This document shows, in pieces, positions 39,691 through 60,651 of a DNA stretch of 64,000 nt (its first letter is position 1; each line of letters starts with the position of its first letter). Below the pieces are notes generated by a model that saw only the letters and a program-made list of their open reading frames with translations, did no database searches and was not told the origin of the DNA. The stretch lies in the NCBI GenBank assembly GCA_030748635.1, contig JASMLP010000028.1, positions 24,633 through 88,632 of the forward strand. Reading direction: 5' to 3'. The translations under genes were made by a program, and so were the position numbers. This DNA comes from Planctomycetota bacterium (GTDB taxonomy: Bacteria; Planctomycetota; JACQVV01; JASMLP01).

Positions 39691-40038
39691 TCAGATTTTC
39701 GGACCGAGGGGCTCCTCGAGGGTCGTGGCCATCTCTTTCGCGCCGGGAAACCGGTCCTCGGGATTTTTGGCCTGGGCGCGATGGCAGAGAGCGTCGAGCG
39801 GTTCGGAGAGGGACGGAACCTTTGCCTTCAGGCTGGGGGCCGGATTTTTAACAATGGCCTGCTGGATTTCGAAGGCGTTTCGTCCCTGGAAGGGTCGAGT
39901 TCCGACCATCCGTTCGTAGAGAATCACGCCGATGGAGAAGAGGTCGCTCCACGGGCTGGAGGCTGAAAAACAATCGGGGTCCGAGGCGTAGGCCTCGGAC
40001 CCCGAGGGGTCAGGCTTTCGGTCGAGTGAGAGAGCGGA
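39691..40038 (-). pseudogene. Remnant of Ser/Thr protein kinase C-lobe, in frame with and 3' of dnaK
   Basis: Continuous frame after the dnaK TAG: ...GSEAYASDPDCFSASSPWSDLFSIGVILYERMVGTRPFQGRNAFEIQQAIVKNP...LDALCHRAQAKNPEDRFPGAKEMATTLEE, matching kinase subdomains VIII-XI; N-lobe, HRD and DFG absent. Confidence 0.6.
39964..40005 (-). terminator. Rho-independent terminator of dnaK
   Basis: Minus-strand stem TCGGGGTCCGAGGC/GCCTCGGACCCCGA (14 bp) with 4-nt loop followed by TTGTTTTT. Confidence 0.85.
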
Positions 40039-42202: not shown

Positions 42203-43561
42203 TCAGCGCAGATCGTATTCCTTGATCTTGCGGTAAAGGGTTCGGACACCGATCCCCAGGATTGTGGCGGCTTGATCTCGGTTGCCGCCGGTCTGCTCCA
42301 GGGTTTTTCCGATCAGCAGTTTCTCGGCGTCACGGAGCGACATCCCCGCGGACAGGGAGGGGGCCGATCTGGGCAGAGCGACCGCCGAGCCGATTAGTTC
42401 GGAAGGGAGGTGTTCGAGTTCGACGGTTGGGTTCGTGGAGAGGAGGACGAGATTTTCGATGACATTGCGCAGTTCCCGAACGTTGCCTGGCCAGGGGAGT
42501 TCCACCAGGCACTTCTGGGCGGCGGGGGAGAGGGTCAGTTCGGATTTACCGTGGAGGAGTTGGAATTCCTCGAGGTAGTGTTTGATGAGGAGCGGAATGT
42601 CCTGCTTTCGGTCCCGGAGGGGGGGGATCTGGATCTCGACCACCCGGAGGCGGAAGTAGAGGTCTTCCCGAAACCGACCGGCCTCGACTTCTTCGGAAAG
42701 GTTTCGGTTTGTGGCGCCGATGAGGCGAACATCGATCGAGATCAGGTCGTTGCTGCCCACGCGCTGGACCTTCTGCTCCTCGAGGATTCGCAGGAGTTTG
42801 GCCTGGGTGTCCAGCGGCATATCACCGAGTTCATCCAGAAACAGGGTCCCCCGGGTCGCGGATTCAAAACGCCCTTCCCGTTTTCGGTAGGCTCCGGTGA
42901 AGGCTCCTTTTTCATGTCCGAACAGTTCGCTTTCCAGGAGACCTCCACTCATGGCGGCGCAATTGAGGGGGACGAAAGGTCCTTCACGTCGCCGACTGCC
43001 GTTATGTATCGCTCGGGCCACCAACTCTTTACCGGTCCCACTTTCACCGGTGACCAGAACGGTGGCTGAGGTCGGGGCGATCTGGGCCATGATGTCGAAG
43101 ATCCGTTGCATGGCCGCGGTCTCTCCGATCAGGCCTTCGAATCCGTACCGTTTATCGAGCGCGCGGTGGAGGTCGAGGTTGTCGCGAGAGAGGGCCTGTT
43201 TTTCCAGGAGATTTTTCACCAGAGTTCGAAGATTTTCCAGATTGATCGGCTTTTCGAGATAGTTGGCAGCTCCTTTCTGCATCGCTTCAACAGCGCTGGT
43301 GACGCAGGCGTGACCGGTGATGAGGACGACTTCAACCGATGGATCTTGGGCCTTGGCATGACGCAAGATTTCCATTCCGTCGATGTCGTAGATTTTCAGG
43401 TCGGTGATGACGATGTCGTATCGCTCACGGGTGAGCCAGTCCAAGCCTTCGGTTCCACTGGTCGCGACGTGGCAACGACATCCTACCCGTTCGAGCGCTT
43501 CAGCGGTGATCTCGGCGTGATTCTTGTCGTCGTCGATCACTAGGATGATCGGGGAGGTCAT
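42203..43561 (-). CDS. NtrC-family sigma-54-dependent response regulator
   Basis: REC domain (DDKNHAEITAEAL...DIVITDLKIYDIDGMEIL), AAA+ with GESGTGKELVARAIH and GAFTGA, C-terminal Fis-type HTH. Confidence 0.96.
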   Translation of the reverse strand: MTSPIILVIDDDKNHAEITAEALERVGCRCHVATSGTEGLDWLTRERYDIVITDLKIYDIDGMEILRHAKAQDPSVEVVLITGHACVTSAVEAMQKGAANYLEKPINLENLRTLVKNLLEKQALSRDNLDLHRALDKRYGFEGLIGETAAMQRIFDIMAQIAPTSATVLVTGESGTGKELVARAIHNGSRRREGPFVPLNCAAMSGGLLESELFGHEKGAFTGAYRKREGRFESATRGTLFLDELGDMPLDTQAKLLRILEEQKVQRVGSNDLISIDVRLIGATNRNLSEEVEAGRFREDLYFRLRVVEIQIPPLRDRKQDIPLLIKHYLEEFQLLHGKSELTLSPAAQKCLVELPWPGNVRELRNVIENLVLLSTNPTVELEHLPSELIGSAVALPRSAPSLSAGMSLRDAEKLLIGKTLEQTGGNRDQAATILGIGVRTLYRKIKEYDLR

Positions 43562-44265
43562 GGAACCTCCGGGATGGGGAGTCGGAGAATAAAGGCCGTC
43601 CCTTTACCGAATTCGGATTGGACCTCGATGGTCCCTCCGTGTTCTTCGACAATACGGCGGGTGGTGGGAAGTCCCAGACCCGTTCCGGTTCCTTTCCTGG
43701 AAAAATAGACCTGCCAGATTTTGGGCAGGTCTTTCGATTCGATACCGGTTCCAGTATCGGTGATCTCCAGACGAACCTGTCCCTCTTCGAGTAGGGATCG
43801 GATCAAGATTTCTCCTCCCTCGGGCATCGCTTGGCGGGCGTTGATGATCAGGTTGTACAACGCTTGCTTGAAGGAGGTCGGGTCGAGAGTGATTCTGGGA
43901 AGGTCCTCGGCCAGGCTTCTGCGAACCTGAATACCCGCGGTATAAGCTTCGGGGGCGAAGAACTCCAGGGTCTCTTCGACTACTTGATTCAGGTCGTGTG
44001 GCGCCTGTCGAGTCAGATCGGGGCCGCGGGCAAAACGGAGGAAATCGCCGAGTACCCCCTCCATCCTTCGGACTTCGTCGAGAAGCACCTGGATGCGTTT
44101 GCGGGTTTTTCGTTCCTCTGGGGTTTCTGGAGTGGCGAAATCCTCCTGGAGGATCTGGAGGTTGAGCTTGATCGTACTGAGGGGATTTTTGATCTCGTGA
44201 GCCAAACCACCTGCGAGGGTTCCCAGGAAGGCCAGACGATCGGATTCCTCACGATTCACACGCAT
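43558..44265 (-). CDS. Sensor-less histidine kinase (HisKA + HATPase)
   Basis: H-box FLGTLAGGLAHEIKNPLSTI; N/G boxes (NLIINARQAMPEGG, TGTGIESKDLPKIWQVYFSRKGTGTGLGL); starts only ~10 aa before the HisKA domain; ATGA overlap with response regulator. Confidence 0.93.
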   Translation of the reverse strand: MRVNREESDRLAFLGTLAGGLAHEIKNPLSTIKLNLQILQEDFATPETPEERKTRKRIQVLLDEVRRMEGVLGDFLRFARGPDLTRQAPHDLNQVVEETLEFFAPEAYTAGIQVRRSLAEDLPRITLDPTSFKQALYNLIINARQAMPEGGEILIRSLLEEGQVRLEITDTGTGIESKDLPKIWQVYFSRKGTGTGLGLPTTRRIVEEHGGTIEVQSEFGKGTAFILRLPIPEVP

Positions 44266-55373: not shown

Positions 55374-56879
55374 CTATCTGATTCGGATCGTTTTTCCCGT
55401 CCCGTTGTAGTAATTCACGTCGATTTGTTCCAGTGAAAATTCCGGTCGGCCTTCAATATAGACAGACAGATTATGCTTCGCTTCTAGCTCCGCGATCGAT
55501 TGACGATGAATGTTTAGTAGCTCGGTCGCGGTGCTGGGATGGGTTCCCACGACCACTCTTCGAACCCCCTCGTTTTTCGTCGCGTTCATGATCATTCGGG
55601 TGAGCATGAGACCCAGAGATTCTGCTGTTTTTACGTGTCCCTTTCCGTGACAGAGGGGGCAGGGACGATGGGTTGTGGTTTGAAGCCCGGGACCCATTCG
55701 TTGTCTTGTGAGTTCGATGATGCCGAACTGACTGATGCGTCCGATACGGAAGCGCGCTCCATCCCGTCGCAGAAAGGTTTTGAATTTCTTCTCGATCTCG
55801 CGTCGGTTTTTTTCTTCGCGCATGTCGATGAAGTCGACCACGATCACGCCCCCCATGTCGCGCAGTCGCAATTGTCGAGCGACTTCTTCCGCGGCTTCCG
55901 CGTTGACTCGAAGCGCGGTGTTTTCGATATCCTTCTCTTCCGTGAATCGTCCGCTGTTGACATCGATGGCTACGAGGGCTTCGGTCTGATCGATGACGAT
56001 CGAGCCGCCCGAAGGTAGAGGGACCTGTCTTTGCAGGGTGCGTTCGATCTGTTCTTCGAGTCGAAAGCGATAAAAGAGCGGTTCTCTGCGATCGTAAAGT
56101 TTGACGCGACCCCGCATTCTTGGACTTACTACACGCATAAGGTCATAGATTTTACGGGCTCCCTCCGGCGAATCGATCAGGATTTCGTCCACGTCGTTAG
56201 TGAGGGCGTCCCGGATGGTTCGGACGACCAGGTCGCTTTCCTGGTAGAGGGTGACCGGGGCCACCGAACGCTTTTCGCGGGCCTGAATGGCGTCCCACAA
56301 TTTGAGCAGATATTTGAGGTCTTTCTGGAGTTCGGTCTTGGTTCGATCCACGCCGGCGGTACGGACGATGACTCCCAGTTCAGGTGGAAGAGAGATCGAA
56401 CTGAGTTTGGAGCGAATATCTTTGCGCTTTTTCGCGTCATCAATTTTTCGGCTGACTCCGGATCGGCGGACCTGCGGCATCAGGACAACATATCGTCCTG
56501 GAAGCGAGATGTAGGTGGATAAGGTGGCTCCTTTTTCGCCGATTTCGTTCTTGGTGATCTGGCAGACAATTTCCTGTCCGCGGTGGAGCAGATCCTGGAT
56601 GCGTCTTCGTCCTCCGGGTCCGTCGCCGGAAGAACGGGCGCCGACGACTGCTGGGCAGACATCGGAAGAGTGGAGAAACCCGTTGCGTTTTTCACCGATC
56701 TGGACGAAAGCGGCCTGGATGCTCGGTTCGACGTTGACCACCCGGCCTTTGTATATGTTTCCATAGCCGGAGGCGATCGAGTCCCTTTCAAGGTAGAGTT
56801 CTTCGAGGGTGCCGTTTTCGATTACAGCGACCCGGGTCTCACCCGATTGGGCCATGTTGATAAGGATTTTCTTGGGCAT
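55374..56879 (-). CDS. rng: Ribonuclease E/G family
   Basis: MPKKILINMAQSGETRVAVIENGTLEELYLERD, GNIYKGRVVNVEPSIQAAFVQIGEKRNGFLHSSDV, GGVIVVDFIDMREEKNRREIE. Confidence 0.96.
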   Translation of the reverse strand: MPKKILINMAQSGETRVAVIENGTLEELYLERDSIASGYGNIYKGRVVNVEPSIQAAFVQIGEKRNGFLHSSDVCPAVVGARSSGDGPGGRRRIQDLLHRGQEIVCQITKNEIGEKGATLSTYISLPGRYVVLMPQVRRSGVSRKIDDAKKRKDIRSKLSSISLPPELGVIVRTAGVDRTKTELQKDLKYLLKLWDAIQAREKRSVAPVTLYQESDLVVRTIRDALTNDVDEILIDSPEGARKIYDLMRVVSPRMRGRVKLYDRREPLFYRFRLEEQIERTLQRQVPLPSGGSIVIDQTEALVAIDVNSGRFTEEKDIENTALRVNAEAAEEVARQLRLRDMGGVIVVDFIDMREEKNRREIEKKFKTFLRRDGARFRIGRISQFGIIELTRQRMGPGLQTTTHRPCPLCHGKGHVKTAESLGLMLTRMIMNATKNEGVRRVVVGTHPSTATELLNIHRQSIAELEAKHNLSVYIEGRPEFSLEQIDVNYYNGTGKTIRIR

Positions 56880-57136: not shown

Positions 57137-57217
57137 TTTCCAACGGATTTCCACAAAATTCTGGTTCTTTCCACGGGATGAGACAAGGTTTCCACTTTTC
57201 TTCCCCGGATATTCCAC
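57137..57217. repeat. Phased direct-repeat array of TTTCCAC (GTGGAAA on minus)
   Basis: TTTCCAC(or 1-mismatch) at 57137 (TTTCCAA), 57148, 57168, 57189, 57211 (ATTCCAC): spacings 11, 20, 21, 22 bp. Confidence 0.6.
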
Positions 57218-57241: not shown

Positions 57242-57271
57242 TTGATTTCCGGTATGACCATTGCTTAGATT
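57242..57271 (+). promoter_or_regulatory. Candidate sigma-70-type promoter
   Basis: TTGATT - 18 bp - TAGATT, 4/6 matches in each hexamer; ends 7 bp before the first hairpin of the candidate RNA. Confidence 0.35.
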
Positions 57272-57277
57272 ATCCGT

Positions 57278-57373
57278 GCTCTGGGTTCTGTCTCCCACGA
57301 AACCCGGAGTGAGATCTCCCAATCTCCCTGAGGGCCAGACCAAGTTTACCCTGGTCTGGCCCTTCCCTTTTTT
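57278..57373 (+). ncRNA. Candidate small RNA (~96 nt) with three UCUCCC motifs and terminator
   Basis: Hairpin CTCTGGGTT/AACCCGGAG (57279-57287/57301-57309), hairpin GAGAT/ATCTC (57311-57315/57322-57326), TCTCCC at 57291, 57315, 57323, terminal stem plus T tract. Confidence 0.45.
57331..57373 (+). terminator. Intrinsic terminator reading on + strand
   Basis: AGGGCCAGACCA / TGGTCTGGCCCT 12-bp perfect stem, 9-nt loop, then TCCCTTTTTT. Confidence 0.7.
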
Positions 57374-57388: not shown

Positions 57389-59191
57389 TCAGGAAGGATC
57401 GACCTGCAGGAGTTGATGGTACTCCTGCAAGGTGCGTACCTGGGGGTTTTGCTTCTGACTATTTCGAATTCCTCGAATGGCCGCGGCTGTCCCGGAGAGA
57501 GTGGTGATCATCGGGATCCCGAGCAGGAGCGCTGATTGCCCGATAGCATCTTCATCATATCGGGCCTTTTTTCCTAATGGGGTGTTGATGATCAGGTCGA
57601 TGGCGCCGTTTTTCATCAAGTCGACTACATCGGGTCGTCCCTCATGAACTTTGTATGTAAAAGTTGCAGGAATCCCGTTTTGCTTCAGGGCGCGTGCGGT
57701 GCCACGGGTGGCCAGGATATCAAAACCCAACTCTTGGAAATCTCGGGCCAAGTCGATCACCGAAACCTTGTCGTTCTCATTCACACTCAGAAATACGGTT
57801 CCAGATGTGGGGAGATGCAGGAAGCCTCCCTCCATGGCTTTGGAGTAGGCGTTGCCCAGACGGAGGCTGATTCCCATGACCTCCCCGGTTGACTTCATCT
57901 CGGGCCCGAGGAAGAGTCGAGTGCCCGGAAATCGGGAAAACGGAAACACCGGCTTCTTGACGCTGATGTAGCGAGTTTCCGCTTTTCCTGTCAGGCCGAG
58001 GTCCGAGAGGCGGTGGCCGAGGCAGACCCGAGTCGCTATTTGAGCCAGAGGGACGCCGACTGCCTTGGAAACGAAGGGGATGGTTCTCGAGGCCCGTGGG
58101 TTGACTTCGAGCACGTACACCACTTCGTTTTTCATGGCGAACTGGATGTTGAGCAGTCCAACCACCCCCAGGCGCAAGGCGAGACGTCGGGTGGTCTCTT
58201 CGATCGTGGAGAGGCATTCCGAGGAGATGAGGTACGGGGGGATAACGCAGGAGCTGTCTCCGGAGTGGATTCCGGCTTCCTCAATGTGCTGCATGACCCC
58301 GCCGATGAAGACCTCGGTGCCGTCGCAAACGGCGTCGACATCGAACTCGAAGGCATCTTCGAGGAATTGATCGATCAGGATAGGATGTTCCGGACTGATT
58401 TCGGCGCTTCGGCGAACATAGTGGATCAGATCGTCCGGGTCGTAGACGATCGACATGGATCGGCCACCGAGCACGTAGGAGGGGCGTACGAGAACCGGGT
58501 AACCGATGCGGTTAGCGATCTGGATGGCTTCGTCCACGGTTCTGGCCGAACCGTCCTCAGGGTGGGGGAGATTTAGTTCGGTCAGAATCGCGCCAAATTT
58601 TTCGCGGTTCTCGGCCAGATCGATCTGTTCGGGGGAAGTCCCGAGGATGGGGGCGCCTGCTTCACCGAGTTGCCTCGCGATCGAGAGAGGGGTTTGTCCC
58701 CCAAACTGGATCAAAACACCATCAGGCTGCTCCAGTTCGAGGACATTCATCACGTCCTCGAAGGTCAAAGGTTCGAAGTAGAGTTTGTCTGCAACATCGA
58801 AGTCGGTCGAAACCGTTTCCGGGTTGCAGTTGATCATGATCGCTTCACGCCCTTCGTCCTGCAGAGCGAATACGGATTGAACGCAGCAGTAATCGAATTC
58901 GATACCTTGACCGATCCGGTTAGGGCCTCCGCCAAGTATCACGATCTTCTGTTTGTCGGAGGGACGGCTTTCGTTTTCTGTTTCGTAAGTGGAATAAAAG
59001 TAAGGTGTTTCGGCTTCGAACTCGGCCGCGCAGGTATCGACGGTTTTGAAGGTCGGGCGGATGCCGTGTTCGATTCGAGATTTTCGGATCTGGTGGGCAT
59101 TGTGTCCGATGAGATGGGCTAACTGTTCATCGGAATACCCGAGCCGTTTTCCTTCCAGAAGAAGATCTCGATCGATCGGAGGTGAGGTCAT
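57389..59191 (-). CDS. carB: Carbamoyl-phosphate synthase large chain, C-terminal half
   Basis: [21 protein letters not shown]...[24 protein letters not shown] and C-terminal MGS-like domain; starts in the oligomerisation-domain region. Confidence 0.95.
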
Positions 59192-60651
59192 CTCGGAGCG
59201 ACCTCCGAGCGGAGGGGTTCGTGTCCGGAGCGAAAGCGTTCTTCGAAATCGACCAGTTCGGCGATCTGCTCGAGGAACCAGGGATCGATGTAGGTGATCT
59301 TGGCGATTTCAGTGACCGTCATTCCGAGTCGTAAAGCGTCCGCGACCGCGAACAAACGATCTTCAACCGGTTGCATCAGGTGTCCTCGAAGCTCTTCGAG
59401 GGATGTCCACCCCTTGCTATCGGCTCCGAGGCCGGCGCGTCCGATTTCCAGGCTGCGCATGCCTTTTTGAATCGATTCTTTGAATGTCCGTCCAATCGAC
59501 ATCACTTCGCCGACCGATTTCATCTGGATGCCCAGGAGATTGCTACATCCCTCGAACTTTGCGAAATCCCAGCGAGGAATCTTGCATACCACATAGTCGA
59601 TGGTGGGCTCGAAACTGGCGAGAGTCTTTCGGGTGATGTCGTTGGGGATCTCGTCGAGCGTGTAGCCGAGGGCCAGCTTGGCCGCGACTTTGGCGATCGG
59701 GAAACCGGTTGCTTTGGAAGCCAGAGCGGAGGATCGGCTGACTCGAGGATTCATCTCGATCACCACCATGCGGCCGCTTTGGGGGTGAATCGCGAACTGG
59801 ACATTGGAACCTCCGGTCTCGACGCCGATGGCTCGAAGGCAGATCAGCCCCCAGTCTCTCATCTTCTGGTAGTCCCGATCGGAAAGAGTCTGGGAGGGAG
59901 CTACGGTGATGGAGTCGCCGGTGTGGACCCCCATGGGGTCGATGTTCTCGATCGAACAGATCACGATGCAGTTGTCTTTATGGTCGCGAACGACTTCGAG
60001 TTCAAACTCTTTCCAACCCAGCAGGTACTCCTCGACCAGCACTTCTGAAATGGGGCTGGCGGTGAGGGCTTTTTCGACCAGGGAGTCGAATTCTTCGACA
60101 TTGTAGGCGGTGCCTCCACCGGTGCCTCCCAGGGTAAAGGCCGGTCGCAGGCTGATCGGAAAATCCAGTTCCGGAAGAAGCGCTCGCGCTTGTTCGACGG
60201 TTTTGACTGTGTTGCCCCGGGGAACATCGAGGCCCGCTTCGAGCATCGTATTGTGAAAGAGTTGGCGGTCTTCAGCTTTACGAATCGCTTCAGGTTTGGC
60301 GCCGATCACCTCGACTCCGTGTTGTTCGAAAACTCCAGCGTCTGCGACTTCGAGCGTCACGTTGAGGGCGGTTTGGCCCCCCACGGTGGGAAGTACGGCG
60401 TCCGGTTTTTCTCGGATCACGATCTGCTCGATCACCGAGGCGGTAATCGGTTCGATATAGGTACGGTCGGCAAAAGAGGGGTCGGTCATGATCGTGGCTG
60501 GATTGCTGTTGACCAACACGACTTCACACCCCTCTTCGCGCAGCGCTTTGAGAGCTTGGGTGCCCGAATAATCGAACTCGCAAGCTTGACCGATGACGAT
60601 GGGGCCCGCGCCGACGAGAAGGATTTTTTTTAATTCCGGACGGCGCGGCAT
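59188..60651 (-). CDS. carB: Carbamoyl-phosphate synthase large chain, N-terminal half
   Basis: [41 protein letters not shown]...; ends [22 protein letters not shown]...; ATGA overlap with C-terminal half. Confidence 0.95.
59192..59209 (-). promoter_or_regulatory. Hairpin sequestering the carB C-half Shine-Dalgarno
   Basis: Minus strand CTCGGAG-GTCG-CTCCGAG immediately followed by ATGA; GGAGG (59206-59202) lies in the stem/loop, 10 nt before ATG. Confidence 0.55.

Follow-up and report, generated by a model that had tools for sequence, protein, structure and literature searches.

In an uncultured planctomycete, the 509-bp intergenic region between an RNase E/G gene and carB2 likely holds a convincing small RNA (sRNA) gene on the + strand, whose transcription is predicted from the sequence. 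The window analysed, a 64-kb stretch of DNA, sits in an 88.6-kb contig of a 4.25-Mb assembly that is 93.7 % complete. On the strength of a terminator and a fold, a discrete + strand RNA is quite probably made from this locus. The first-pass annotation had proposed a trans-acting sRNA of ~96 nt; the + strand gene for a non-coding RNA is well supported, while action in trans is weakly indicated and fits published analogues. The features of the locus are as follows; the identities of both flanking genes are backed by Pfam.

55374–56879, minus strand: RNase E/G gene
57137–57217, + strand: five helically phased TTCCA boxes, a possible activator site array
57242–57271, + strand: weak sigma-70-like promoter, TTGATT-N18-TAGATT (4+4 of 12 consensus matches)
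57278–57373, + strand: candidate sRNA of ~96 nt, its 5′ end predicted from the promoter and its 3′ end from the T run
57278–57310, + strand: hairpin 1, with a C-rich loop that exposes CUCCC; UCUCCC at 57291–57296
57311–57326, + strand: hairpin 2, GAGAU-CUCCCA-AUCUC; UCUCCC at 57315–57320
57323–57328, + strand: third UCUCCC, of which hairpin 2 pairs the first four bases and leaves CC free
57331–57373, + strand: intrinsic terminator with a perfect 12-bp stem, a 9-nt loop and TCCC followed by T6
57389–59191, minus strand: carB2, with its stop codon at 57389

In the proposed mechanism, a lineage-specific + strand gene would give rise to a strongly folded RNA of ~96 nt, ended by its own intrinsic terminator. 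Transcription would start near 57278, possibly with an activator bound to the TTCCA array upstream. Hairpins 1 and 2 would display CUCCC in their loops, which would pair with GGGAG-type Shine–Dalgarno sequences of target mRNAs; we infer that such pairing would block ribosome binding. A further CUCCCUGAG beside the terminator, part-covered by hairpin 2, could be freed if this short hairpin opens. The chances that the locus encodes a stand-alone, Hfq-independent sRNA acting in trans by CUCCC loops on GGGAG Shine–Dalgarno sites are about even. It is doubtful that it represents an undescribed, lineage-specific Planctomycetota family of Hfq-independent anti-Shine–Dalgarno RNAs, activated through the TTCCA array and directed at many mRNAs simultaneously.

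An orphan terminator on the + strand

The case for a non-coding RNA on the + strand rests most strongly on the orphan terminator. The perfect 12-bp inverted repeat described earlier (57331–57342/57352–57363), followed by TCCCTTTTTT, is present as claimed, and the T6 run begins 4 nt past the stem, not in direct contact with it. The terminator loop, AGUUUACCC, has CCC at its end and contains no CUCCC. Within the window the stem is equalled only by that of the dnaK terminator (39974–40005, minus strand), a very strong yardstick with a 14-bp stem located 33 nt past dnaK. Genome statistics here and below refer to a 478-kb sample of this genome, with genes called by a simple home-made caller. A strict scan of both strands of these 478 kb, requiring a perfect stem of at least 8 pairs and T5 within a few nt, returned seven sites: five lie no more than 150 nt after a same-strand gene, one lies within a gene, and the one orphan is the sRNA terminator. 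Along the same strand, the closest end of a called gene is 1,957 nt away, and this call is probably a spurious ORF, since the genuine genes in that area lie on the minus strand. The earlier statement that no + strand ORF neighbour exists to be terminated is borne out, with no real + strand gene upstream. A terminator-like hairpin with a T run is also seen at 43707–43732 (minus strand), within a histidine-kinase-like gene (43558–44265), and may be due to chance. A + strand riboswitch or attenuator was considered and rejected because there is no + strand gene downstream.

The strand of the T run also bears on whether there is an independent + strand RNA at all. The hairpins could instead be part of minus-strand transcripts, where they would stabilize the 3′ end of the carB operon transcript or weakly terminate it, or would sit within an extended 5′ leader of the RNase E gene. 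The 12-bp hairpin lies ~25 nt beyond the carB2 stop, and the minus strand of the segment folds about as well as the + strand (z = −5.6), as this reading would have it. However, the T run is present on the + strand only; read on the minus strand, CAGGGAGATTGG comes after the stem, and other terminators of this genome have their T run on the same strand as the gene that precedes them. A purely minus-strand role is therefore regarded as unlikely.

Folding and display of the CUCCC motifs

The 96-nt segment of the candidate + strand RNA folds at −45.1 kcal/mol (z = −6.1); none of 200 shuffles was as low, and its z-score lies below those of all 1,196 intergenic comparison windows. Much of this signal is contributed by the terminator. 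Hairpins 1 and 2 are nevertheless structured independently of it: the first 51 nt, before the terminator, have a z-score of −4.7, or −3.9 by a second calculation, and only 27 of 1,992 intergenic windows of 51 nt are equal or better, which places this part in about the top 1.4 %.

The two hairpins were described earlier from the sequence, and their outlines hold. The core of hairpin 1 is 9 bp long, including one G-U, and encloses a loop of 13 nt in which UCUCCC is found; in the minimum-energy fold the stem gains an outer G-U and three further pairs on the inside, so that CUCCC is left as a 5-nt loop. Hairpin 2 has five pairs and the loop CUCCCA, so that its UCUCCC consists of the closing U plus loop bases. 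The unpaired probability of CUCCC in the two loops is ~0.9–1.0. The third UCUCCC had been assigned to a single-stranded linker, and this was wrong: the 3′ arm of hairpin 2 is made of its UCUC, and CC alone is exposed, the six bases of the motif being unpaired with probabilities of 0.01, 0, 0, 0.01, 1 and 1 in order. Of the three free anti-Shine–Dalgarno motifs originally envisaged, two therefore remain as exposed CUCCC loops while the third copy is mostly paired. Three copies of UCUCCC arise in 3 of 3,000 shuffles of the 96-mer, although UCUCCC was chosen after the fact and 12 % of shuffles contain one 6-mer or another in three copies. The triple TCTCCC pattern occurs twice in the genome, versus once for a reversed control. 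It was also considered as a route to paralogues, which were rejected, the sole match (in C202) being of low complexity.

Promoter, upstream array and the possibility of action in cis

The proposed promoter was found as described, with TTGATT at 57242–57247, an 18-nt spacer and TAGATT at 57266–57271. Each hexamer agrees with the consensus at four of six positions. Sites this good (8 of 12) occur at 2.7 per kb-strand in the intergenic DNA of this genome; since they are so common, the promoter is weak evidence and adds little. Under a stricter 9-of-12 rule no promoter site was obtained for the candidate. In the sequence TAGATTATC (57266–57274) each strand offers a −10-like hexamer, TAGATT (+) and GATAAT (minus), so that the site might fire both ways, towards the sRNA and towards the RNase E gene.

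Directly upstream of the promoter, TTCCA boxes start at 57138, 57149, 57169, 57190 and 57212, all on the same strand. Their spacings of 11, 20, 21 and 22 nt correspond to one or two helical turns, a pattern suggestive of proteins binding along a single face of the DNA. The array is the only cluster of its kind in the 478-kb sample, and TTTCCAC pairs with the array spacing are rare genome-wide. Control of the sRNA by the phased array is plausible, as it fits both the position and the helical spacing; the array might instead serve the divergent RNase E gene. The TTTCCAC boxes resemble DnaA boxes. A replication origin at these boxes was rejected, as GC skew is of one sign throughout the window.

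Alternatively, a + strand RNA could act in cis: its gene faces the downstream flank of carB2 in antisense and is situated upstream of the divergent RNase E gene. Its mode of action would be pairing with the carB 3′ UTR, cleavage by RNase III or interference with transcription, and its C-rich loops would be incidental. A gap of 16 nt separates the end of the sRNA from the carB2 stop codon, a carB2 3′ UTR long enough to cross the sRNA would be fully complementary to it, and minus-strand promoter-like sites near 57273–57298 overlap the sRNA promoter. Exposed CUCCC loops, compact hairpins and an own terminator are, on the other hand, typical of trans-acting sRNAs. Nor is the arrangement conserved, since carB2 adjoins the RNase E gene in none of the 80 relatives searched at the position upstream of rng; a comparable hairpin with a T run was likewise not found at that position. 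Action in cis is judged improbable.

Shine–Dalgarno use and predicted targets

GGAG-type Shine–Dalgarno sites are used by a minority of genes in this genome. GGAG is present at positions −18 to −4 in 19 % of 362 sampled genes, versus 6–9 % at upstream control positions, and GGGAGA in 1.7 % versus 0.6 %. Because GGAG precedes about a fifth of the sampled genes, a CUCCC loop could meet a modest set of Shine–Dalgarno sites. The exposed loops match GGGAG-type sites, and GGAG-type sites are enriched before start codons. The 3′ end of the 16S rRNA, site of the anti-Shine–Dalgarno sequence, is missing from the assembly.

Target prediction, which had been proposed as a check, was run and gave a slight excess at gene starts that is not significant. 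Complementarity of at least 9 nt to the sRNA was found at six gene starts and in two control segments, and 40 of 500 shuffled sRNAs reached the same target count. Most matches of at least 8 nt over a GGAG-type site involve AAUCUCCCUGAG of hairpin 2 and the linker. The best match, of 11 nt, is also formed via AAUCUCCCUGAG and precedes an ORF that has no Pfam family. These putative pairings at gene starts are a lead, not proof.

Searches for homologues and for Hfq

The suggested check against known RNA families was made for the entire window, and none of the 4,227 families of Rfam 15 reached its gathering cut-off. Among sub-threshold sRNA matches spanning the full candidate, the best was sX13 (RF02232), whose covariance model gave 17.4 bits (E = 0.57; cut-off, 50 bits). 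This is a chance-level match between RNAs of like architecture, and by sequence the candidate is not a member of the sX13 family. LhrC, for which Rfam 15 may lack a model, was absent from the Rfam matches up to E = 10.

Searches by blastn in 61 relatives gave just short chance matches, and no homologue was found with a covariance model in 395 Planctomycetota genomes, which include one order-mate besides this genome. Weak covariance-model matches elsewhere were rejected; they fell in coding frames, a 5S rRNA terminator and ordinary terminators, and their number was no greater than expected by chance. An exact 23-mer had zero matches in viral contigs. The candidate thus appears to be an orphan in the sampled genomes, one order-mate included, which does not imply uniqueness. 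No match to PF17209 (hfq) was detected in the 93.7 % complete assembly.

A further reading is that the terminator just halts pervasive or divergent + strand transcription before it runs antisense into carB2, and leaves a short RNA as a functionless by-product. The terminator is the strongest element of the locus, the fold upstream of it is just in the top 1.4 % of intergenic windows, target enrichment is weak and no homologue was found in the 395 genomes; hairpins 1 and 2, however, fold without the terminator (z = −4.7) and both expose CUCCC. A functionless by-product is judged improbable.

Relation to known C-rich-loop sRNAs

As a trans-acting sRNA, the candidate would most likely work like LhrC or sX13 and belong to neither family. 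LhrC of Listeria is 111–114 nt long, with its own terminator and three CUCCC/UCCC sites that are redundant, two being located in loops; it targets the Shine–Dalgarno region of lapB mRNA, and Hfq is bound but not needed (PMC4132741). The candidate, as read from its sequence alone, shares the own terminator and the CUCCC sites, two in loops. LhrC exists in five near-identical copies whereas the candidate has one, and LhrC consists of one hairpin plus a terminator whose loop holds a site, whereas the candidate has two hairpins plus a terminator. Unlike in LhrC, the terminator loop is without CUCCC and one UCUCCC is mostly paired. LhrC binds Hfq, which was not found in the candidate's genome.

The sX13 RNA of the Xanthomonadaceae is 115 nt long and Hfq-independent, and its C-rich loops act on G-rich motifs near start codons (PMC3771888). 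Three stem-loops, like those of sX13, are also predicted for the candidate, which is shorter at ~96 nt and has C-rich apical loops as well. In sX13 all three stems carry 4C/5C loops, whereas the candidate has two C-rich loops and the terminator loop AGUUUACCC. The sX13 gene is always located downstream of polA, whereas the candidate is located between carB2 and the RNase E/G gene, in Planctomycetota. Absence of Hfq is consistent with a C-rich-loop mechanism, because sX13 (PMC3771888) and LhrC (PMC4132741) work without it. The staphylococcal RNAIII, RsaE and SprD also bind mRNAs at the Shine–Dalgarno sequence through UCCC motifs (as cited in PMC4132741); these belong to another phylum, and the candidate reaches no Rfam cut-off.

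In one tally, annotated sRNAs number 8 for the whole PVC group versus 345 for Proteobacteria (PMC9029176). The candidate is well formed and, in a deep planctomycete lineage, offers a short and precisely bounded target for RNA studies. If the reading is true, C-rich-loop sRNAs would seem to have arisen more than once, in distant phyla; even then, the candidate would reveal no mechanism of a new kind.

Flanking genes

In the sole other sampled genome of the same order (95 % complete), no RNase E/G homologue was detected. The best-matching named relatives of the RNase E/G protein come almost entirely from Planctomycetota, at 42–50 % identity. On the other side of the candidate, carB is split into two genes (57389–60650) that overlap by 4 bases (59188–59191), and each half retains its own ATP-grasp domain (Pfam).
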